From the IMG/VR virus record IMGVR_UViG_3300042261_000928, positions 1 to 20,415 of that record: a stretch of DNA of 20,415 nt, one strand, 5' to 3'. Position numbers and translations under genes: made by a program. Source of the DNA: a virus. How positions within the stretch are numbered: position 1 is the stretch's first letter; each line of letters starts with the position of its first letter. Below, in pieces: positions 2,448-17,456 of the stretch. The notes under the pieces were generated by a model. That model did not search any database. It was not told the origin of the DNA and was given only the letters and a program-made list of their open reading frames with translations.

Positions 2448-3845
2448 TTACCAGTCCTTGTAACTGTCACGAGTAACTCCGGCTCCGCGGAAAGTAAGGC
2501 CTGCAGGGTCGCCCCCTTGTGCAAAAGCAAGCGCAACCGCGTCCGCTTCATCAGGAGAAGGCAAGCCCCGCTTCTTCATATCTTCTTTGCGCTCGAGCGC
2601 TATCTTGCCCTTGACGGTCATTGAGTAGTGGCGGGTTGAAAGCTGCGCAATCAGGTCCTCATTGTCGGGAATCTCAAGCTCACCGCGAAGGAGCATATCC
2701 TTGAGCGCACCCCACCATACGCCCGACGAGTTGTGGTAGTATTCATCACCTTCGCCCCCAAAGTTGCAGGGGATGATCGCGATATCGGAGAGCATCTGAC
2801 TTGAGTTGTCCTGAAGGATATCCGTCACACCGCCCCCGACCCCGGTATCGTCAACCTTGATCGCGGTTACGCGGTTATCAATCGCCATTCGCCAGGCAAT
2901 GCCTGCGGTTTCAGTGGTCGGCAGTCCGTGATAGCCAACGAGCTTTTCAACCCGACTTCCACAGCGTAGCGCGAAGACTGTCTTGTCGTCGCCAAAGCGA
3001 GCTACATCAACCCCGAGCTCTCGAACTCCATCCTGCTCGCTTCCATCGTGCCAACGGGCGGCTGCGGCCTCTACTATGTCGAGCGGGATAAAGCTGTTTG
3101 ATTCAGCGCTCGGGAAGTCACCAAGAACGCGCACGCGGTAGACGTCTGAATCGCGGCCCCACTTGGTAGCCATCTCCGCGGCATACTTCTCGGTAACCCT
3201 GGGCGAGTTCTCAGAGCTTACGTGAATGGTGTGCCACAAGCTCCTAGCTTTGTGGTGCGAATCGTAGAAGTAGCCCGAGAGCCTGGTCGGGTTGCCAGCC
3301 ATTATGATCTGCGAGTTTTCACCTGTGAGCGCCCCGTCGACGGTCGCCATAATCTCATCGGGAACGCCCGAGGCTTCATCAACCACGTAGAGCAGGTGGT
3401 CAGCGTGGAAGCCTGCAAGGTTCTCGGGTTTGGCACACGATCGGGCAACAGCAAACCACGTCTCTTCGGCACCGACGATCCCAACCCGCGTTGCAGTCCA
3501 GTTGACGATCTTGGATAGTATCGGGCTTCGCCCGAGCCACAGGCTGATCTCGGCCCATAGCAGGTCGTGGAGCTGGTGCTGAGTCGGGGCTGTGCAGGGT
3601 ATCTTGCAGTATGGCCGGGTTGCTAGGAACCATAGCACCGTCCACGCAAGCGCTGCGGTTTTGCCTACGCCGTGGCCCGACCTCGTTGAAGCGTTCTCAC
3701 CACGGGCAAGAGCATTAAGCGACTCCGCTTGCCAGGGGTCGGGCTCGGCCCGAAACATCTGGTAAACAAACCTGCAGGGGTCATCCCGAAGGGCGCTCAG
3801 CAGAGTCGCGAGCTGTTGCACTTGGCTTGTCGGGAATGATTGCAT
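2448..3845 (-). CDS. terL: Terminase large subunit (ATPase and nuclease)
   Basis: This is the DNA-packaging motor, 465 residues. The N-terminal ATPase shows Walker A RSGHGVGKT at 55-63, Walker B LLYVVDEAS ending in D156 E157, and a coupling motif MAGNP at about 182-186. The C-terminal RNase H-like nuclease shows GVDVARFGDDKT at 278-289 (D280), KVDDTGVGGG at 330-339 and a late acidic SPDEADA near residue 430, the expected third metal ligand. The ATG at 3845 has GAGG 6 bases upstream and overlaps the 3' end of the small-subunit gene by 65 bases, suggesting translational coupling. The gene looks intact. The packaging type (cos or headful) cannot be told from this sequence alone. Confidence 0.95.
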   Translation of the reverse strand: MQSFPTSQVQQLATLLSALRDDPCRFVYQMFRAEPDPWQAESLNALARGENASTRSGHGVGKTAALAWTVLWFLATRPYCKIPCTAPTQHQLHDLLWAEISLWLGRSPILSKIVNWTATRVGIVGAEETWFAVARSCAKPENLAGFHADHLLYVVDEASGVPDEIMATVDGALTGENSQIIMAGNPTRLSGYFYDSHHKARSLWHTIHVSSENSPRVTEKYAAEMATKWGRDSDVYRVRVLGDFPSAESNSFIPLDIVEAAAARWHDGSEQDGVRELGVDVARFGDDKTVFALRCGSRVEKLVGYHGLPTTETAGIAWRMAIDNRVTAIKVDDTGVGGGVTDILQDNSSQMLSDIAIIPCNFGGEGDEYYHNSSGVWWGALKDMLLRGELEIPDNEDLIAQLSTRHYSMTVKGKIALERKEDMKKRGLPSPDEADAVALAFAQGGDPAGLTFRGAGVTRDSYKDW

Positions 3846-8249: not shown

Positions 8250-8674
8250 TTCTGCTCACTCTCCTTCGGTGCTGCGTGCGCGGCAAGGATGCTATCCGCA
8301 TCCGCAATCGTTTCCTTCAGATATTCCATAAACTCAGGGGTGTTGGAGCCATCGACGCACATCGCCACTCCACCAAGTTTGCTCAGTGCCCCCTCCAACT
8401 CCTCCACCCGCGTCCTCAGTGCCTCGTGGCTGGCGATGAGGCGGGGGATGTCGGTGCGGGAATTGGCTATGAGCTGACAATTTGCTTCTACAGGTTGTGA
8501 TTGATCCCCGGCAGCCGATACAATTGTTACTCGCTTGCTACCCCGCAATTGACGAACAGTGCGAACGCGGTGAACAAGTGCGTCTGGAGCGACTTCCCAC
8601 GGTCCCTCCGTAGCTCTATCAGCTCTCTCCCCCATCTCCGCGATCTCCTGCGCGGTCAGGATGTCAGTCGCCAT
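8246..8674 (-). CDS. Ead/Ea22-like coiled-coil phage protein
   Basis: A 142-residue protein. It contains ATEGPWEVAPDA near residue 20 and then ANSRTDIPRLIASHEALRTR and VEELEGALSKL, a helical segment repeatedly seen in phage Ead/Ea22-type accessory proteins. No catalytic motif is seen. ATG 8674 is clear from an ideal AAGGAGG site 9 bases upstream, and it overlaps the previous gene by 11 bases. The open frame continues upstream to 8755, but that part is a shadow of the preceding gene. Confidence 0.65.
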   Translation of the reverse strand: MATDILTAQEIAEMGERADRATEGPWEVAPDALVHRVRTVRQLRGSKRVTIVSAAGDQSQPVEANCQLIANSRTDIPRLIASHEALRTRVEELEGALSKLGGVAMCVDGSNTPEFMEYLKETIADADSILAAHAAPKESEQK

Positions 8675-8876
8675 TGGTTTCGGCCTCCTTGTCGTCGGAC
8701 AAGAGTATGGTTTCGATGATACCAAACACATTATCCAGCCTTTTCTTAATGTCATCGCGCCTATTCCGACTCAGGTTTGTTAGCTTGAAGTCAACAGACC
8801 CCGCTACACCATACTCATTCTTGTGTGGCCTTGGGTCATATGTAACCGGTCTTACGATTTTGACCTTTCTATCCAT
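8664..8876 (-). CDS. Small hypothetical protein
   Basis: A 70-residue protein with a beta-rich N-terminal half (DRKVKIVRPVTYDPRP), a middle SVDFKLTNLSR and a helical end (RDDIKKRLDNVFGIIETILLSD). Not recognised. ATG 8876 follows AAGGAGG by 10 bases. An in-frame ATG at 8930 would overlap the previous stop (ATGA) but has no ribosome binding site, so I prefer 8876. Confidence 0.55.
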   Translation of the reverse strand: MDRKVKIVRPVTYDPRPHKNEYGVAGSVDFKLTNLSRNRRDDIKKRLDNVFGIIETILLSDDKEAETNGD

Positions 8877-8926
8877 AATCCTCAATCCTCCTTCTTCTGT
8901 GCCGGGTCCGATACCCGACCGTATAA

Positions 8927-9472
8927 TCAAACGGAAGTGCCGCCAGGCACTTCAACCCGTCTGAGTAGTCCCATCAGTGCATCGTCAAATGGCCTGAGCC
9001 ATTTCTCATAATCCTGCTGAAAACCGCTTCGTGAATCCCATCCCTCCTTTGGTGTATAATCAATCACTAACCGGCCACTCAACCCCTTGGTTATTCTCGC
9101 GCCCCAGGCGCGAAAGCCGTACAGCAGGCCGTGCAGTTTCGGGTTCTCTTCGCGAATCGAAGTAAGCACCAATTCCCACAATGGATGATCTTTCTCCAAA
9201 TCGGGCCGGGGGTCTGCCGTGCTTTGCAGCTCCTCAAGATCGACAGGCATAAGATTGTTGACGGCCTTGGCTTCATCCACGATGGATTCAACAGTCTTGC
9301 CGGAAGCAATCTGTTGGAGCTCGGTAAGTATTTGTGCGCGGTAGCGCACAATCTGCTTGCGCAGAGTCTCAGTGATCTTCTCTTTCGGCCCCGCTGAAAA
9401 CGTTGTGCCATCACTTGACAGTTCAACCTTGATACCACGGGCAATCAGAAATGGAAGGTAGGCAGTAGCCAT
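8927..9472 (-). CDS. Protein with TubC-like N-terminal module, unknown function
   Basis: A 181-residue protein. Its first 50 residues (LPFLIARGIKVELSSDGTTF, then PKEKITETLRKQIVRYRAQILTELQ) have the layout of the TubC-type docking module: helix, short beta hairpin, then two helices with a K/R-x-x-I/L-L end. Such modules occur on megasynthases and, from memory, also beside primases of mobile elements. The remaining 130 residues are not recognised. The ATG at 9472 shares one base with the primase stop (TGATG) and has GGAGGT 7 bases upstream, so the two are translationally coupled and may act together in replication. Confidence 0.6.
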   Translation of the reverse strand: MATAYLPFLIARGIKVELSSDGTTFSAGPKEKITETLRKQIVRYRAQILTELQQIASGKTVESIVDEAKAVNNLMPVDLEELQSTADPRPDLEKDHPLWELVLTSIREENPKLHGLLYGFRAWGARITKGLSGRLVIDYTPKEGWDSRSGFQQDYEKWLRPFDDALMGLLRRVEVPGGTSV

Positions 9473-12030
9473 CAAAATACCTCCATATCGTGGTCTTCCG
9501 CCCACTGGGCGAAGTCCTCTTCTGTTGTTAACTTGTTGTCGAGTGACGCAAGTGACGCAATTTGGGCTGTTTTGGAAAAGTCTTCTGATTCATTTCTTAC
9601 ATGAGGGGACTTTTCAAAATTACCCCGATTTGCGTCACTTGCGTCACTATTGAGCGTGGAGCCATCCCATAGATTGCCAGTTGAACCATTTCTTAAGGCA
9701 ATACCTTGAAGCATTCTGATGCCACCAGTGCCCCTTGCAAGGTCGATATCATCCCTCTGTGTCAGGCTTTTCGAAAACCACTGTGTTGCTTTAAACGCCG
9801 GACGACGAACCTCAATGGAGCACCACTCCAGATATTCACGCCAGAGCTTGTTGACTTCGATAGATTCATCCAACCCGAGCACACACTTCTGGTCGATGAA
9901 CTCGGCAAGCGGGTCCTGTTCGTCAAAGAGCCTGTTTATCTCCCTACGAATCGCAGGCGGCACCTGCAGGCCATTCTTCTGCCATTCCAGACAGCCCCGC
10001 ACGGCCCAGGCAAAGATACCTTCAACCTCACTTGTCAATTTCTCCCACAGCCGATCATCCTTGATCGGAAGCTTGCCCTCTTCAGGATCATAGAACCGCT
10101 GCCTGAAAGGCACTATCTTGACGCGCCGCTTCATCGCGAAACTCTGCGACCTGATTCTTGGCACGTCGTTTGTCGAGAAGACAACCTTGAACGTCGGCAC
10201 GTAGGTGAAGAAACTCTTATAGAGATGCCGGCAGGTGACTGGGTCGCGGCCTGATATACGCTTTAGAAGCGGCTCGTTGAACGCCTGGTGTTCGTCGGCT
10301 TCCGATGCGGTTACAAGGCGGCTGCCGACGAGTGATGCAAGGTCTGCGGTTGACGTGTCGTTGCGCTCAACGAAGGTCGTAACCGGGGTGTTACGCACGT
10401 AGTCCCCGAGCACGCGGCAGATGATCTCGACGAACTTGGATTTGCCGCACTGCCCGCGCCCGTAGAGGATGAATATGGACTCTTCACGGGTATCGCCTGT
10501 CAGGCAGTAGCCGATCATACGCTGTGCAAAGCTCGCGATGTCGGAGTCCCCGACGAATACCTCGTCGAGGAACTGAAGGAAACGCGGACATTGTGCCTCC
10601 GGCACAAAGTTGATCGGTGCCATCTTGGCGATCATATCGCTTTGGCGATGCTCGTGCAGCATGCCCGTGCGAAGGTCTACGGTTCCGTTCTGGCAGTTGA
10701 TGAGCCAGTGATCGGCATCGAGCTCGCTTGATCGCACGGGTATGCCGGGGCAATACTGAGCAAGCCCTATCATCGCTTCAAGTCGGGGTTTGGATTCGCT
10801 TTTGCGGATATGACCGAACATCTGCTTGGCTTTGTCTGGGTCGGTTATGTCCTTCAGGAGGTCATACATGCTGCGCACGGTGTCCCTTGCGATGCGCTCT
10901 ATCTCGCCGGTTGTATCATACTGCCAATGACTTCCACACCAGTGCAGCCACTGGCGTGCGTCTACATCGAAGCGAAGCTCAGCACCGTAGATGTCGATCA
11001 TATACTCGGCATTGCCGAGGTCCGTCAGGTGGGTAAGGTTGGGGATATAGTCCACCTCGCCCGTATTGGGGTTAACGCCCGTCTCTTGGGCGCGGGCGAC
11101 CCGCTGAGGGCCCGTGTAGGCGTTCCTGGTGTCGTGTATGGCTTTTGTGATCGTGCGCTCGCGGTAGTCGTCACGGTCCCACTTGTCACGGTAGAGTCCG
11201 GACATCCGGAACAGCCTGTCGATTCGTTCGGCGTCGCCAGCAGTCCAGAACGCAAGGTGATTGCATAGTGCCTGGTCGGCGGCGCTCCAGTCGTTGCCAT
11301 ACTCGGAAATGTTGCCGTTCCAAAGAAGGCAGAATGCCGCCCCGTTCCGTGGCGAGGATATCGCCTTGGTTATGAGCTCTTCATCGGTCAGGGTCATCGG
11401 GGTGACCTGATTCTGTGTCACGCGGCCCTTGCGATGCTTCCTGCCGCCTGCGGCGACAGCCGCATCTTCCGGGATGTCGGACGGGAAGAGCTTGGCATAG
11501 AGCCCGGCAATCTCGTTTGCCGCGGGCTGAATACGTCCGTTTGTGCCCGGCACAAGGTCTCCGGTCATCACGATTGGTCGTGAGTGATCATAAAGCTCAA
11601 TCTGCGGGAACTCTTTGATGTTCCGGCAACGCGCGCCCGGCTTCTTGCCCTGGCAGATGATATGGATACCTTCGCCGGAGCGCGAAAACTCGGTATAGGA
11701 GTCGAAGTCGTTTATGATGGCTTGCGCCCACTCTTCGATTTTGCCTGCATCGTCCACGCAGTGGTCCAGATCGACGAACGTGTAAGGGTCTTCGCCCCAC
11801 AGCATATACTCGACGCCGTCATATCGAGGCGAAGCCTCGACTGCCGCATCGAAGGTGTCCCATCCGTCCGGTTCGTTTATCTTGGCACGAGCGCCGCCGT
11901 AGGGTTTGCGCGGGATCTTGGTAAGCTCTCCTGAGCCCTCAGCGGGCTCGAGCGAGTAGCAGACCCATTGAGCGCGTGCGCGCATCTCCTCCGGTATGTT
12001 CATCCATTGTGTTGTGGCTTTTGGTTTCAT
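9472..12030 (-). CDS. Primase-polymerase / SF3 helicase (D5-type replication protein)
   Basis: An 852-residue replication protein. N-terminal archaeo-eukaryotic prim-pol: FVDLDH 85-90 (metal-binding Asp pair), SRSGEGIH 116-123 and RPIVMTG 151-157. A linker domain near 268-300 (ERIDRLFRMSGLYRDKWDRDDYRERT) matches the helical PriCT-like part seen in phage NrS-1-type enzymes. C-terminal SF3 helicase: Walker A GRGQCGKS 524-531, Walker B region RLVTASEADE 571-580, motif C KVVFSTND 615-622, with the arginine-rich SFAMKRRVKI following. It would both make primers and unwind DNA at the phage origin. No other DNA polymerase is in the window. ATG 12030 has AGGTGGT upstream. Its last 150 bases contain a long inverted repeat (9542-9648), and the encoded tail (SDASDA ... 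ASLASL) looks shaped by that DNA rather than by protein function. Confidence 0.92.
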   Translation of the reverse strand: MKPKATTQWMNIPEEMRARAQWVCYSLEPAEGSGELTKIPRKPYGGARAKINEPDGWDTFDAAVEASPRYDGVEYMLWGEDPYTFVDLDHCVDDAGKIEEWAQAIINDFDSYTEFSRSGEGIHIICQGKKPGARCRNIKEFPQIELYDHSRPIVMTGDLVPGTNGRIQPAANEIAGLYAKLFPSDIPEDAAVAAGGRKHRKGRVTQNQVTPMTLTDEELITKAISSPRNGAAFCLLWNGNISEYGNDWSAADQALCNHLAFWTAGDAERIDRLFRMSGLYRDKWDRDDYRERTITKAIHDTRNAYTGPQRVARAQETGVNPNTGEVDYIPNLTHLTDLGNAEYMIDIYGAELRFDVDARQWLHWCGSHWQYDTTGEIERIARDTVRSMYDLLKDITDPDKAKQMFGHIRKSESKPRLEAMIGLAQYCPGIPVRSSELDADHWLINCQNGTVDLRTGMLHEHRQSDMIAKMAPINFVPEAQCPRFLQFLDEVFVGDSDIASFAQRMIGYCLTGDTREESIFILYGRGQCGKSKFVEIICRVLGDYVRNTPVTTFVERNDTSTADLASLVGSRLVTASEADEHQAFNEPLLKRISGRDPVTCRHLYKSFFTYVPTFKVVFSTNDVPRIRSQSFAMKRRVKIVPFRQRFYDPEEGKLPIKDDRLWEKLTSEVEGIFAWAVRGCLEWQKNGLQVPPAIRREINRLFDEQDPLAEFIDQKCVLGLDESIEVNKLWREYLEWCSIEVRRPAFKATQWFSKSLTQRDDIDLARGTGGIRMLQGIALRNGSTGNLWDGSTLNSDASDANRGNFEKSPHVRNESEDFSKTAQIASLASLDNKLTTEEDFAQWAEDHDMEVF
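9542..9648. repeat. Long inverted repeat with tandem 9-mer arms (candidate origin or operator)
   Basis: Outer arms 9542-9560 and 9630-9648 are a perfect 19-bp inverted repeat; each arm is two tandem copies of AGTGACGCA plus one base. An inner 8-bp inverted repeat (GAAAAGTC 9575-9582 with GACTTTTC 9608-9615) sits inside, with equal 8-base internal loops and a partly paired GGG/CCC step. Four 9-mer sites in a symmetric array inside the 3' end of a primase gene resemble iterons or an operator. Confidence 0.85.
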
Positions 12031-12052: not shown

Positions 12053-12253
12053 TCAATGCGCCCAGTGATCTGGCCGCCTGCGTCTTGGTGTGAACCTTAC
12101 TGTGCCTGCTTCAGACCGCGGGCTGATGAGCTGCTTCTGCCCCCGCGTGCGTTGCACTGAAGCGGCGAACTCTTTCGGATCGGCAGATGCTGAGCTTGGC
12201 TGCTTCTGATCCGATGTGAATGCGCCGGTGTCGGCAAGGTGCTCGGGTATCAT
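12053..12253 (-). CDS. Small basic, probably disordered protein
   Basis: A 66-residue protein rich in Ser, Ala, Gln and Arg, ending in a basic FTPRRRRPDHWAH tail, with no hydrophobic core. Not recognised. Evidence for translation is good: the ATG at 12253 shares one base with the upstream helicase-methyltransferase stop (TGATG), with GAGGTG 5 bases upstream, and it fills the only gap between that gene and the primase. It could be a nucleic-acid-binding accessory, but this rests only on charge. Confidence 0.5.
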   Translation of the reverse strand: MIPEHLADTGAFTSDQKQPSSASADPKEFAASVQRTRGQKQLISPRSEAGTVRFTPRRRRPDHWAH

Positions 12254-14607
12254 CAGGCCACCTCATCAAAGAGTGACTCCTGTCCATTGTTGCGCTTGGC
12301 GGACTCCAGATTGCGGCACGCAGTTTCGTAGTAGCTTCGCTTCAGCTCTATGCCGATGAACTTGCGGCCAAGTCTGATGGACTGGTAACCTTCACTGCCG
12401 ATGCCCGCGAAGGGACTGAGCACCGTTTCACCGGGGTTGCTCCAGAGCTTGACGGCGCGTTCGATGACCCCAAGCTGAAGCGGGCAGAGGTGGCGCTCAT
12501 CGTCAGGTTCGCGGGCTACCGCGACGTTGAGCACGTCGGTTTCCTTGATTCCTCTAAGAGTTTCAGTGCTACCGTCGTCATTTTGGCGATACTGAAGCGC
12601 CTCCATATGCAGCGATGGGTATGATGGCTGTGTTTCAGCGAACGCTCCCCCAAACGATGCGTGCCTATACCAGACAGGCGCAGCCCATTCCACCCATTCA
12701 GATTCCGTTATCCACCCATTTGGATTGTTATATTTCTCGGATATGCCCGCTCGAATCGGAGTATGGTTATCACCGGGCTTACGGAACAACAGCAGGTAGT
12801 CGGCAAGTGCCATTCTCATAACACTCGAGTCAGTGGCAAGACTCTTGAAAAGTAGTCCGCGCTCCTTGTTGCGCGTCGCCTGTATCTGTGGGTTCTTATC
12901 TATGCAGACCTCCCCTGCATAAATCCAACCTTCTTCCTCCATCATCTGAATGACCCGTCCTCGATAGTCCTTGATACCGATGTAGCCGTCCCTGCTCTGC
13001 ATCGCAGTGATCTGCATAAGGTGAACACAGTGGAGTCGTCCAGGACGTAGAACACGAAGAAGTTTGTCCTTTACGACCAGGAACCGGTAGTGTTCGATCA
13101 TTTCATTTACTGCTGTGCAGTTGCCGATATCGCGGGAACTGTTGGAGTAGGCATACATCCCAGGAAATGGCGGACTGTAGATGATGAGATCAACCGACTC
13201 GGTTGGAATCTTGTCAATCATCTCAACCGAGTCACCAAGGTGAAGCGTCCAATCTTTCCCGGTTGCTGTATCTGATGCGTAAGCCATTTCCTGGCGCGCC
13301 GCTCGGTCAAGCTGCAAGCCCTGCATATGCTCCACAAGTCCATCCATCATTTCTTCAAACTGCCTCCGCTTTCGGTTGATATTGTCGATAACCGCGCCTT
13401 CGGTTTCTGCCGTGATAATGTAGGCGTTCACTTGCTCCTTTTGCCCATAGCGGTCAAACCTGCTGATCGACTGGTGAAGATCCTCAAACGAATCAGAGAG
13501 CCCGACGTAAGCTGTATTGTGGCAGTGCTGCCAGTTAAGCCCGTATCCAGCGATTGATGGCTTGGTGACAAGCACTCGGATGTTGCCCTCAGCAAAGTCA
13601 ACAAGTTTCCGCTCCTTTGCGTCGACAGTCTCATTTCCGACGATCTCAACCGCGCCCGGTATCGTTTTGGCAAGCGCCGCGCTTTCAACGTTCAGGTTGC
13701 ACCAAAGGACCCAGCAGTCATTAGAGCCGTTTACCAGGTCAGCACAGGCCTGCACGCGGTCTTTGGTGGAATTCCTGCGGGCTGAAAGCCTCTCACTCAT
13801 AGTCCGGGCCTCGACGTGAAACAGCCGGTCACTGGTGGCTTCAGTGAGTTCAACTGTCACCTGCTGCCAGTTGACCGGCGGGCGGATGAACCCTTTATCG
13901 GAGAATCCGAGATCGGAAGGACGCCTGAGCGCAACGCTCCAGGTCGCAAGCCACTTGTAGAAATCGCTCACCGCGTGGCGTTTGAGTCTCCACGCGTGCG
14001 TGGTGTTCCCGTCCTGTTTGAAGTAGAGCGCTATGATCTCCTTGCCGCGCATAATATCGAGGAACTCTGCGTGGTTGATGATCTCGATAAGATCGTTGGG
14101 TGCCGGCGTCGCAGTGCAGGCAAGCCGGTAAGGTATGTTCTTGGCAAACTCAGTGATAGCCGCCCGCATCTTGCCCGAAAACGCTTTCAGGATGCTTGAC
14201 TCGTCAAGGATGATGTAACTAAAGTCCGACGCGTTGAACTTGTGAAGCATCTCATAGTTGGTGATGTTCAGTCCGTCGCCTACGTCTTCTCCACTTCGGC
14301 AATGAGTGATGGTGATGTCGAGCTTTTCCACCTCTCTGACTGTCTGAGTAGCGACTGCAAGCGGAGCAAGGATAAGCCCGCGCCCCTTTGTGTGCTCGCC
14401 GATAATGCGGCCCCATTCAGCCTGCATAAACGTCTTGCCGGTCCCTGTCGCTGTAAAGAGCGCCGCCCGCCCACGATTGACAGCCCATTTGACGATTGCT
14501 CTCTGATAGTCAAAGAGCATCGGGTTGATCAGATCGTCAGCAACTTCGAAGCCGACAGGCTTGAGATCGGTTGTCTTGCTGTTCAAAAACTCGCTGTAAC
14601 TATTCAT
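12253..14607 (-). CDS. SNF2-like helicase fused to a DNA methyltransferase
   Basis: A 784-residue fusion. Residues 1-430 form an SF2 helicase: motif I TATGTGKT 52-59, motif II LDESS 134-138, motif III CTATPAPND 164-172, and motif VI HQSISRFDRYGQ 378-389, as in SNF2/DEAD-box translocases. Residues 450-784 form a beta-class amino methyltransferase, with catalytic motif IV SPPFP 478-482 before SAM motif I SPFAGIGSEG 731-740 and a FIGIELKRSYYETA end. SPPF fits N4-cytosine or N6-adenine methylation; the target is unknown. No nuclease domain is seen, so it is not a full Type I or III restriction enzyme. It probably protects phage DNA while moving along it. I chose ATG 14607, which overlaps the RecD stop in an ATGA; a TTG at 14625 behind GAGG would add six residues. 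Confidence 0.87.
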   Translation of the reverse strand: MNSYSEFLNSKTTDLKPVGFEVADDLINPMLFDYQRAIVKWAVNRGRAALFTATGTGKTFMQAEWGRIIGEHTKGRGLILAPLAVATQTVREVEKLDITITHCRSGEDVGDGLNITNYEMLHKFNASDFSYIILDESSILKAFSGKMRAAITEFAKNIPYRLACTATPAPNDLIEIINHAEFLDIMRGKEIIALYFKQDGNTTHAWRLKRHAVSDFYKWLATWSVALRRPSDLGFSDKGFIRPPVNWQQVTVELTEATSDRLFHVEARTMSERLSARRNSTKDRVQACADLVNGSNDCWVLWCNLNVESAALAKTIPGAVEIVGNETVDAKERKLVDFAEGNIRVLVTKPSIAGYGLNWQHCHNTAYVGLSDSFEDLHQSISRFDRYGQKEQVNAYIITAETEGAVIDNINRKRRQFEEMMDGLVEHMQGLQLDRAARQEMAYASDTATGKDWTLHLGDSVEMIDKIPTESVDLIIYSPPFPGMYAYSNSSRDIGNCTAVNEMIEHYRFLVVKDKLLRVLRPGRLHCVHLMQITAMQSRDGYIGIKDYRGRVIQMMEEEGWIYAGEVCIDKNPQIQATRNKERGLLFKSLATDSSVMRMALADYLLLFRKPGDNHTPIRAGISEKYNNPNGWITESEWVEWAAPVWYRHASFGGAFAETQPSYPSLHMEALQYRQNDDGSTETLRGIKETDVLNVAVAREPDDERHLCPLQLGVIERAVKLWSNPGETVLSPFAGIGSEGYQSIRLGRKFIGIELKRSYYETACRNLESAKRNNGQESLFDEVA

Positions 14608-16856
14608 TGCTCCATCCCCATCCAAGTCCGCCTCTTAGCCGCCGCGGTTGCTCCCATAGCTCGGCGGATGCCGAGCTTATCCCCAAGCACAACGCTTGTT
14701 TTGCGCGCTCGAGTGACCGCGGTGTATACGATGTTTCGTGAAAGCATATAGGTATGCTGCTTGTGAACGATGCTCACCACGCAGGGCCACTCAGACCCTT
14801 GTGCTTTGTGGCAAGTGATCGCGTAAGCGAGCACGATATCCTTCGCTTCGTCGCTCCCGACCTCCACTGCCGTAGGCAGTGGCATATCATCAAACTGTAT
14901 GATGATATGGCCGGGGTCCTTCCCAATGCCGTCAGTCACGTCAACGACAATGCCCTGCGTGCCGTTCATCACTCCGAGCTGGTAGTTGTTACGCGTCTGC
15001 ATCACCTTGTCGCCGGGGTAGAAACGCGTGCGAATGGCCTTCTCTTCAGCAGGAACGGGCGGAAGCTTGCGCCCCTGAGCATCCTGCCATATGCGCTGCA
15101 TCTCGGCGTTGATTCGAATAACCCCGAGAGGTCCCTTGTTCTGAGGAGTGATGATCTGGCACTCGTTTGCCGGATGAAACCCCCACTTGGCGAACTGCTC
15201 GCGCATCAGCATCCGCAAACTTTCGAGGACTAGCTCAGGATCTTCCATGTTGTCGATGAGCCACCATTCACGCCCCCCTGCAGGGAGCGTAGGGGTAGAT
15301 TTGGGAACGTCCCCATCTAGGACCTTGTTACAGTTCTGGGCAAGCGCCCCCGCTGCGCGGTGGCAAACATCCAAAATATGGAAAGGCACGGTCCTGTTCG
15401 TAAGAGCATCGCGAAGCGTGTTCCCCGCGCCGATCGGCGGAAGCTGGTTATGGTCGCCCACCATCAGCAGTTGCGTTTTCGAGAAATCGATGGCACTCAT
15501 CAGACTCCAGAGTAGCCTGATATCGCACATGCTGACCTCATCCACGATCACAAGCGAGTGTGGAAGTTGGTTGTCGGCGTCGTAGATGAACCGCCCTTCA
15601 AACGGGCTATACTCAAGCAGCCTGTGGATAGTCTGTGCGGTCGCTCCGCCCGCGTGCTGGCTCATTCGCTTTGCGGCTTTGCCCGTTGGGGCACACATCG
15701 CGACCTCAAGACCCATATTGGTGAAAACGCGGCGTGCCGCCGCGATGGTGAAGCTCTTGCCGGTTCCCGCCGCGCCTGAGATTATGGATACTCTGCTTCG
15801 CAGCACCATCGCTATTGCGGCGCGTTGGGAGTCAGTCGGCTGAGAGCCGACTGAGGATGCAATTGCCTGCTCTATTTCCGAGTCTTCGCGAAGCGATTCC
15901 TTCTTGCCGGAGGCAAGCCAGTTGATGATATCCTGCTCTTTGCGGTAGAGATCGCGAAGGGCGATGCGCACTGTGCCATCGGTTTCATCCTCGATGGCTA
16001 TCACTTGCGGAACATTGTCATCACATAACACCTGCAACTCGCACCGGATGAAGCCGTCTGCCTGCAGGCTGTCAAGGCAGAGCTTTGCCATCGCAAGCTT
16101 AACCAGGTCGCTTCGAAGTATCCACGTGTGGCCGCTTTCATCAGCCTGTTTGCAAAGCAAGTCAAGCAAGCAAGCGCGGATGCGGCCGGGATGGTCCTTC
16201 GGCACTCCGATCTTCTGTGCAACCTCGTCGGTTCGCGCAAATGCCCAGCCGTGAATCTCCTCACAGAGCACGTAAGGGTTATCCTCGAGCACGGCACGCG
16301 CCCGGTTACCGTAGCGCTCTGCGATCTTCTTGATCTGGCCATGAGTGAGCCCGAAACCGGCAAGCCAGGTTGATATGGCGTTTACGTCGGCGTGCTCTGT
16401 CCAGGCTGCCGCTATCGCGGCAACAACACCTTCGGTGAGCTTGGCTGCCTGTGCAATTCTGTGAGGCTCTTCCCGGATGATGCGGTCAAAGTCACATCCA
16501 CACTCTGCTGCTACCAGCTTGGCCTTGGCCGGGCCTATGCCCTTGAAAGCTGGGTTGTTCGCAAGGTAGCTTGCAAGTCCTTCTTCGGTCGCCTCCGGTT
16601 CCGGGTAGCTGATGCAGCTTGCCTCAAACTGCGGCCCAAACTTCGGATGACGGGTCCAGTTGCCGTGCAGGATGATCTGCTCATCACGCTGCACCCGCGA
16701 CTTGATAGAGAACTTCACGTCCCTGTCAAGGAGCGGCCCGCTGTCTGCAATGAGAACCCCCGCGCTGAACGCGTCTGAATCGTAGTATAGGTGGGACACG
16801 CGCCCGGTGATCTCGGTTTCGCCTGCCCGATCTCGTTGCTCAAGAGCGACTTCCAT
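14604..16856 (-). CDS. recD2: RecD2-like DNA helicase
   Basis: A 750-residue SF1B helicase, close to the usual length of RecD2. In order: an N-terminal OB-like region (GRVSHLYYDSDAFSAGVL), a helix-hairpin-helix near GIGPAKA 106-112 with a second helical repeat region to about 300, Walker A SGAAGTGKS 360-368, Walker B VIVDE 436-440, motif III MVGDHNQLPPIGAG 465-478, and C-terminal motifs CHKAQGSEW and YTAVTRARK. It unwinds DNA 5' to 3' and in phages supports recombination-dependent replication. ATG 16856 has AGGGG 8-9 bases upstream and overlaps the nuclease gene by 17 bases. The gene appears intact. Confidence 0.9.
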   Translation of the reverse strand: MEVALEQRDRAGETEITGRVSHLYYDSDAFSAGVLIADSGPLLDRDVKFSIKSRVQRDEQIILHGNWTRHPKFGPQFEASCISYPEPEATEEGLASYLANNPAFKGIGPAKAKLVAAECGCDFDRIIREEPHRIAQAAKLTEGVVAAIAAAWTEHADVNAISTWLAGFGLTHGQIKKIAERYGNRARAVLEDNPYVLCEEIHGWAFARTDEVAQKIGVPKDHPGRIRACLLDLLCKQADESGHTWILRSDLVKLAMAKLCLDSLQADGFIRCELQVLCDDNVPQVIAIEDETDGTVRIALRDLYRKEQDIINWLASGKKESLREDSEIEQAIASSVGSQPTDSQRAAIAMVLRSRVSIISGAAGTGKSFTIAAARRVFTNMGLEVAMCAPTGKAAKRMSQHAGGATAQTIHRLLEYSPFEGRFIYDADNQLPHSLVIVDEVSMCDIRLLWSLMSAIDFSKTQLLMVGDHNQLPPIGAGNTLRDALTNRTVPFHILDVCHRAAGALAQNCNKVLDGDVPKSTPTLPAGGREWWLIDNMEDPELVLESLRMLMREQFAKWGFHPANECQIITPQNKGPLGVIRINAEMQRIWQDAQGRKLPPVPAEEKAIRTRFYPGDKVMQTRNNYQLGVMNGTQGIVVDVTDGIGKDPGHIIIQFDDMPLPTAVEVGSDEAKDIVLAYAITCHKAQGSEWPCVVSIVHKQHTYMLSRNIVYTAVTRARKTSVVLGDKLGIRRAMGATAAAKRRTWMGMEQ

Positions 16857-17268
16857 AGTATTTATCCCCTTGCTTTAGCATCTGTGTCACAAGCGCATGT
16901 GCGTGCCCTCTGTCGTGGGCGAAGACCACGTGCACGGGATGGTAAGCCTGCATAATGCCGACGATGATTCCAAGTAGCGCCGCTGGCGCTATGTCTGACG
17001 TGTAAGTGCCTGAGAGGATATCCTCAAGGCTCCCTTCGATCACTACCGCAGCGAACTGGTATGATTGCAGCTTCTGTAGCTCTCTGGTGAACCGTCGCCG
17101 CCCGCGAAGCACTGTGTGGATGAGGTCTTGCACACTCTTGCGCTCGATTGCGAAGCTTTCCTCAAGCCCGGCGAGTGAGTAGTCGCCAGCAGGAAGAGCG
17201 CGGCGCTCGCAGTCGAACTCTTCGAACGAGTAGGGGCGCTGTTCGCGCGTATCGATCACTACGCGCAT
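16840..17268 (-). CDS. ERCC4-domain (XPF/Mus81-type) nuclease
   Basis: A 142-residue single-domain protein. It starts MRVVIDTREQRPYSF, then shows ALPAGDYSLAG and FAIERKSVQDL: the ERCC4 nuclease signature D-x-R-E, GDY and ERK-x-x-x-D. The family cuts branched or flapped DNA. The C-terminal helix-hairpin-helix domains of cellular XPF are missing, as is usual in phage versions. ATG 17268 has AAGGG 9 bases upstream and overlaps the upstream gene by 10 bases. Next to RecD2, the Sak4-like ATPase and the DUF669 protein, it likely resolves recombination or replication intermediates. Confidence 0.88.
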   Translation of the reverse strand: MRVVIDTREQRPYSFEEFDCERRALPAGDYSLAGLEESFAIERKSVQDLIHTVLRGRRRFTRELQKLQSYQFAAVVIEGSLEDILSGTYTSDIAPAALLGIIVGIMQAYHPVHVVFAHDRGHAHALVTQMLKQGDKYYGSRS

Positions 17269-17456
17269 TTTGATAGCCCTTCCATTCTCGCGATGAGTGA
17301 CTTGACAGTAACAATGGCCCTGCATACTCCGTTTGGCCTTGCGCCGGGACTATCCACCCAAACCCAGGGCAGTTTGGCCGGGCACTTCTCATCGTTGCCC
17401 TTGTTCGCGCACTTGTCGCACTCCGGAAGCCAGTAACCCCCGTATCTGATTCTCAT
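17259..17456 (-). CDS. Small Cys-rich protein
   Basis: A 65-residue protein with C13, C16, C25 and C45 (PECDKCANKGNDEKCPAK then NGVCRAI). The first three resemble a zinc-binding knuckle. Not recognised. The GGAGGAGG site just before the ATG at 17456 is strong, and the gene follows directly after the hairpin cluster at 17492-17572, so it may be the first gene of a transcript controlled by that element. Confidence 0.6.
   Translation of the reverse strand: MRIRYGGYWLPECDKCANKGNDEKCPAKLPWVWVDSPGARPNGVCRAIVTVKSLIARMEGLSKCA

Follow-up and report, generated by a model that had tools for sequence, protein, structure and literature searches.

Mirrored 9-bp iterons in the 3′ end of a phage primase-helicase gene as a candidate replication origin

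The window analysed here is the whole 20,415-bp virus record IMGVR_UViG_3300042261_000928 of IMG/VR, in which an inverted repeat lies within the 3′ end of a gene for a prim-pol/helicase. The repeat consists of two tandem pairs of the 9-mer AGTGACGCA, facing each other across an A+T-rich core. We propose, with a probability of roughly 0.86 and on the strength of sequence comparisons, that it is the replication origin of the phage, or its initiator-binding core, and that it belongs to the iteron type. A like arrangement recurs where replication-helicase genes end, in phages and mobile elements from many groups of bacteria. Computation supports the architecture of the element, its fixed place at the gene end, the concerted change of its 9-mer between relatives, its A+T-rich core and its predicted fold. 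Binding, melting and a bidirectional start would follow by analogy with the Rep protein of Staphylococcus aureus pathogenicity islands (SaPI), with Cch2, with the origins of phage-inducible chromosomal islands (PICI) and with the pRN1 model.

The repeat and the gene that carries it

The arms are perfect 19-bp reverse complements, each made of two tandem copies of AGTGACGCA plus one A (Table 1); perfect 19-bp arms of two copies each had been described in an earlier reading of the letters alone (the original prediction). A scan of the whole record, which that reading had suggested, found four exact copies of the 9-mer, all of them at the inverted repeat; with one mismatch allowed there are 7 matches against 5.3 expected record-wide, i.e., no further enrichment. 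The only repeat period at the element is 9 bp. The core has an A+T content of 62%, compared with 45% for the window, and ranks in the top 0.25% among the window's 69-bp stretches, a feature that the original prediction did not name. The nested 8-bp inverted repeat reported inside it is present (GAAAAGTC at 9575–9582, GACTTTTC at 9608–9615) and its arms extend further with one bulge. The "matching" internal loops fared less well: there are indeed two loops, but 9561–9569 and 9620–9629 are just partly complementary.

As RNA, the strand folds at −52.6 kcal/mol (z −8.5); the value for DNA is −34.1 (z −8.9), and none of 200 shuffles did as well in either case. Synonymous shuffles of the gene, with protein and codon usage fixed, a comparison proposed in the original prediction, reached equal folding in only 2 of 1000, and the mirrored 9-bp tandem appeared in none of these 1000 nor in any of 300 shuffles of the whole window.

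Table 1. Features of the window around the inverted repeat
Feature	Position	Strand	Basis or detail
Left iteron pair	9542–9560	+	AGTGACGCA AGTGACGCA + A
Right iteron pair	9630–9648	−	two AGTGACGCA 9-mers, inverted
Core, 69 bp, proposed melting region	9561–9629	no strand	A+T content
Nested imperfect inverted repeat, inside core	9570–9619	no strand	arms 9570–9582 / 9608–9619, one bulged base
Prim-pol/helicase, D5/P4-alpha type primase, 852 amino acids (aa), proposed initiator; repeat in 3′ end	9472–12030	−	Pfam, phrog, TIGR, PDB relatives
Predicted winged-helix domain, residues ~709–779, proposed iteron-binding domain	9694–9906	−	AlphaFold, Foldseek, alignments
Primase tail reading through repeat, residues ~788–852, predicted disordered, absent from most homologues	9472–9670	−	AlphaFold confidence (pLDDT), alignments
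Next gene, probable ATG overlapping primase stop (TGATG)	8927–9474	−	open reading frame (ORF) positions

The protein encoded by the host gene matches the Pfam families D5_N, NrS-1 HBD and DUF5906 as well as phrog_1829 (DNA primase), and scores above the cut-off for TIGR01613 (primase_Cterm). By sequence, its best PDB relative is 7ola, which we take to be a SaPI5 protein; other relatives are NrS-1 polymerase (6k9a/6a9w), C962R of African swine fever virus (ASFV) and poxvirus D5. The putative winged helix is modelled with pLDDT 91–97 and, in Foldseek, resembles the C-terminus of ASFV PrimPol (E 3e-3) and the RFX DNA-binding domain (1dp7, E 5e-3, TM 0.70 by target), both with modest E-values. In homologue alignments the conserved protein ends at GIxL, residue ~787 (9670), 22 bp short of the repeat. 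The tail that follows has pLDDT of ~43–51 over most of its length, and it is here, in residues ~795–829 of 852, that the repeat encodes SDASDA ... ASLASL, in the frame originally given.

We hypothesize that the primase-helicase binds the 9-bp iterons AGTGACGCA of its own gene, probably via the C-terminal winged helix. The mirrored pairs would set two helicase hexamers face to face across the 69-bp A+T-rich core, the facing hexamers would melt it, and the prim-pol domain would then prime both strands. In a small clade that includes the window the reading frame continues through the element, which would embed the origin in its own initiator gene and make the SDASDA/ASLASL peptide a by-product of an origin being read through. 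Three of the features expected of an iteron-type origin of this kind were found in the window: a position where the proposed initiator gene ends or immediately 3′ of it, two times two 9-mers around an A+T-rich core, and a gene product that belongs to the expected helicase class and has a predicted C-terminal DNA-binding domain.

Relatives and the spread of mirrored iterons

The nearest relative, L383, has a primase 54% identical to that of the window. In all four copies of its repeat ATTGACGCA replaces AGTGACGCA, with one base of the 9-mer changed, the dyad intact (arms TTGACGCAATTGACGCAA / TTGCGTCAATTGCGTCA) and the position unchanged; the frame also runs through, giving DAIDAN ... ASIAS. In phi105 (34% identical primase), pairs of AGTAACAAA with a 9-bp period stand inverted, 82 nt apart. 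The check set beforehand, whether the 9-mer varies between relatives while the dyad is kept, was thus borne out in both. Other iterons occupy the equivalent position in PSA, in Enterococcus phages, in Staphylococcus phages and in a Bacillus plasmid. In Lactobacillus phage A2 (AJ251789), which has a homologous primase, the annotated rep_origin (32208–32717) begins within the primase 3′ end and holds inverted clusters of short repeats; its iteron, however, is ACGGGAGGAT, the spacing is less regular, and most of it lies downstream of the stop. An origin, or a site for binding of the primase to the gene that encodes it, had been among the options first named for the element, and the fixed place and concerted 9-mer change seen in these sequences argue for it. 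Loci with more similar primases tend to have more similar iterons (r 0.35–0.39, Mantel p<0.002).

An exact 18-mer search returned only four loci, one of which (L004) falls in the coding sequence of an unrelated gene; conservation thus does not extend to the 9-mer itself. When the element was compared with phages by DNA-level BLAST, only weak, unrelated matches appeared. A search of IMG/VR with the single primase protein found no homologues, whereas an alignment-based search did retrieve them.

We retrieved 80 homologues by protein, ignoring repeats, and obtained 64 primase-stop windows (−150 to +350) after removal of redundancy. A mirrored 7-mer, present at least twice in each orientation, was detected in 35 of these 64, compared with 119 of 5052 other windows on the same contigs (2.4%) and 3.3% of shuffles. 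Scanned along contigs, the detector peaks exactly at the primase stop, at 52% versus 3–10% elsewhere. The original statement that other phage primases carry C-terminal repeats was correct as to their presence, but in most relatives they sit just past the stop codon, outside the gene; among aligned homologues, the frame continues into the repeat in the window, L383 and L201/L384 only.

A wider pattern, GTGACNNNNGTGAC-N45-75-GTCACNNNNGTCAC, occurs in at least 120 stretches of IMG/VR and in at least 120 stretches of GTDB genomes, compared with 15 for the reversed core in the whole of IMG/VR. The figures that follow are all among the matches listed. The gene closest to the repeat belongs to DUF5906 in 37 of 66 cases, to D5_N in 30 and to the VapE-like family in 8, the families overlapping. 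Where the locus has a D5 helicase, the repeat lies between −300 and +100 bp of its stop in 34/41 viral and 16/19 genomic cases, and of these 28 viral and 12 genomic fall 0–100 bp past the stop (0.5 and 0.3 expected). Where a genomic locus lacks a D5 helicase, the nearest gene is AAA_25, RepA-like as judged from consensus, in 32 of 53. The outermost GTGAC provides the TGA stop of the neighbouring ORF in 43 of 160 cases, versus a background of 6% per strand. The four variable bases agree at 71% between arms and 57–59% between tandem copies, compared with 31% between loci (195 distinct loci). The cores are A+T-rich, as in the window. A long alternating purine-pyrimidine run, which the window does not have, is found in the core of 26% of loci and 1% of shuffles.

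It is tempting to unite these loci in one widespread origin class, with mirrored 9-bp iterons of GTGAC (or GTNAC) core at the 3′ end of helicase genes. It would span many bacterial phyla, in both phages and mobile elements, and would be used by helicases of several classes (D5/DUF5906, VapE-like, RepA-like AAA_25), the variable four bases being a replicon-specific address. We hold this generalization tentatively, as having somewhat less than an even chance.

Several loci deserve mention for themselves. In Clostridia genomes (L257, L264, L266, L273, L274 and others), mirrored GTGAC arrays are found where the gene for a ~385-aa AAA_25 (RepA-like) helicase ends, and the TGA stop of that gene is often inside the first GTGAC; this is the same layout with a second helicase class. 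Purine-pyrimidine cores such as CGCGCGCACACGCG, of a kind able to form Z-DNA, occur in L128, L137, L140, L178, L201 and others. Two mirrored GTGAC elements stand within ~3 kb or less of one bacterial contig in L265 and in L286, each at its own ORF end. In the phage contig L003 (600–920), several GTGACGCA arrays in both orientations share one intergenic stretch, with no helicase in the 3.8 kb examined. Pattern matches in high-G+C chromosomal genes (L262, L304, L317, L325) are apparently due to chance and were not taken as origins.

Counter-evidence, rival explanations and known origins

Some results weigh against an iteron-type origin bound by the primase-helicase. The strict detector misses ~40% of homologues; several of the misses, read by eye, show more varied iterons. 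A domain-wise test of iteron-primase co-variation did not place the C-terminal domain above other domains. In pRN1, specific binding of the stem-loop by the replication protein was not observed (PMC4234260). GC skew changes from about −0.12 to the left to about −0.02 to the right of ~9500–10000, a weak shift in level near 10 kb instead of the clear switch that had been looked for; we do not use it as evidence, because gene content also shifts near 10 kb. Finally, the window being a fragment, a second origin may lie elsewhere.

Iterons commonly serve as control sites too. It is conceivable that the primase or another phage protein acts on them as an operator or autoregulatory site for the replication operon or for the next gene, upstream of which the element lies. 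The element is, however, at a gene 3′ end and not at a promoter, and the probable ATG of the next gene shares bases with the stop codon of the primase, which leaves no gap between the two for a promoter or terminator. Across very diverse phages, moreover, the position is tied to the end of the helicase gene and to no promoter. We consider such a regulatory role improbable.

The strong fold raises the question of whether a structure is itself selected, either as a cruciform in the DNA or as an mRNA stem-loop that acts in termination, decay or the control of translation. Compared with Markov shuffles, the spacer by itself has slightly higher self-complementarity (mean z −1.0), and pRN1 requires stem integrity (PMC4234260). 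Pairing, on the other hand, does not need tandem repeats within arms, yet tandem copies agree at 58% versus 31%, which favours iterons over a hairpin; 22% of the listed loci have unequal copy numbers in their arms. No T-run follows the stem, which in addition sits within a translated gene to which the downstream gene is coupled. Taken together, a selected hairpin seems quite improbable to us.

If instead the SDASDA/ASLASL peptide mattered and the DNA symmetry merely followed, the frame kept by L383 would be as expected. L201, however, encodes a different peptide (VTLVTDVT ... HARAHARARAR), most homologues stop before the element, some of them using the TGA within the first GTGAC, the tail is predicted to be disordered, and synonymous shuffles never recreate the mirrored tandem. 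The initial view that the DNA is selected and the peptide follows it stands, and selection on the protein is very improbable. A mobile palindromic insertion, another of the options first named and similar to repetitive extragenic palindromes (REP) or miniature inverted-repeat transposable elements (MITE), can be practically dismissed: the element type occurs in a great many phages and prophages, but mostly in a fixed place at replication-helicase gene ends and with a different 9-mer per lineage, the record holds a single element, and the joint change of all four copies between L383 and the window points to evolution in place.

Known systems provide the closest analogies for an iteron-type origin. 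In SaPI and PICI, a Rep or pri-rep gene has the origin immediately 3′, functional in plasmids (PMC6092414, PMC7581432); in PICI, iterons flank an A+T-rich region, an arrangement functional in a plasmid (PMC6092414). In SaPI Rep and in Cch2, the C-terminal domain recognises repeats that follow the gene directly, and two hexamers were proposed (PMC7581432). The window shares the helicase class and the placement of the element where the proposed initiator gene ends. In contrast, the window belongs to an apparent full phage (portal, complete replication set) with phage relatives, and its iterons are of the 9-bp GTGAC type, in perfect mirrored pairs inside coding sequence. It does not fit a PICI satellite relying on particle genes of a helper phage, as it encodes a Mu-type portal and a broad replication set. 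Cch2 of the staphylococcal cassette chromosome mec (SCCmec) is likewise a D5-type helicase with short repeats beside its own gene at a putative origin, and its C-terminal domain, when isolated, binds these short direct repeats, which lie immediately past the gene (PMC7581432); there, however, three 5-nt AAGTG repeats form one cluster, and inverted repeats are dispensable for binding.

In the pRN1/BPP-1 model, an essential ~100-nt symmetric element of low sequence and high symmetry conservation lies 3′ of a gene for a prim-pol/superfamily 3 (SF3) helicase with a C-terminal winged helix (PMC4234260). No iterons were recognised there, whereas the window element is symmetric but built of iterons and thus differs from the pRN1 type. 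The published BPP-1 stem-loop, checked for the GTGAC pattern, has none. BPP-1 does carry a 9-bp mirrored pair, AAACGAGGC, ~460–570 bp past the primase and separate from the proposed stem-loop; in this Bordetella phage (L376, NC_005357) the pair TTGCCTCGTTTGCCTCGTTT ... AAACGAGGCAAACGAGGC spans 2608–2713. The paper that proposed the stem-loop for BIP-1/BPP-1 does not mention the mirrored 9-mers of BPP-1 (PMC4234260). In lambda and Shiga toxin (Stx) phages, the iterons and an A+T-rich tract are within the coding sequence of the initiator, gene O (PMC7466680), and it is this embedding that the window shares. The lambda initiator is unrelated, and its 4–6 iterons lie mid-gene on one side of the A+T tract; a lambda-type origin is ruled out for the window by its prim-pol helicase initiator and by iterons on both sides.

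Novelty and further observations

Origins at primase-helicase gene ends are already known, and so is embedding in the initiator gene for lambda O (PMC7466680). In the literature, of which our coverage was incomplete, we found no description of mirrored 9-bp GTGAC iterons as a class, which we take as a lead and not as proof of novelty. The PICI layout was said to be common to no other known replicon (PMC6092414); the organisation described here contradicts that confinement. Searching the 3′ ends of primase-helicase genes for short tandem repeats mirrored about an A+T-rich core would be a simple rule for locating many origins by sequence alone. To our knowledge, the replication origins of most phages are unknown. 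If the widespread class is true, origins and their cognate initiators could be read directly from metagenomic phage sequence. An origin at the end of the primase gene would also explain the apparent low-complexity tail of a phage protein as an origin translated by the ribosome.

The primase shares its module with a Sak4-like annealing protein, a candidate single-stranded DNA-binding protein, an ERCC4 nuclease and a RecD-like helicase, which identifies this region as the replication module of the phage. The window also encodes the Mu-type portal (Pfam); the adjoining ORF 2448–3845, without a Pfam match, is probably the terminase. At 12253–14625, one 790-aa ORF fuses a SNF2/DEAD-type helicase region with an N6/N4 DNA methyltransferase domain. 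In L201, an ERCC4/XPF-type nuclease domain is fused to the N-terminus of the primase (8286–11285), whereas the window encodes this nuclease separately, in a gene of its own within the replication module (16840–17325).
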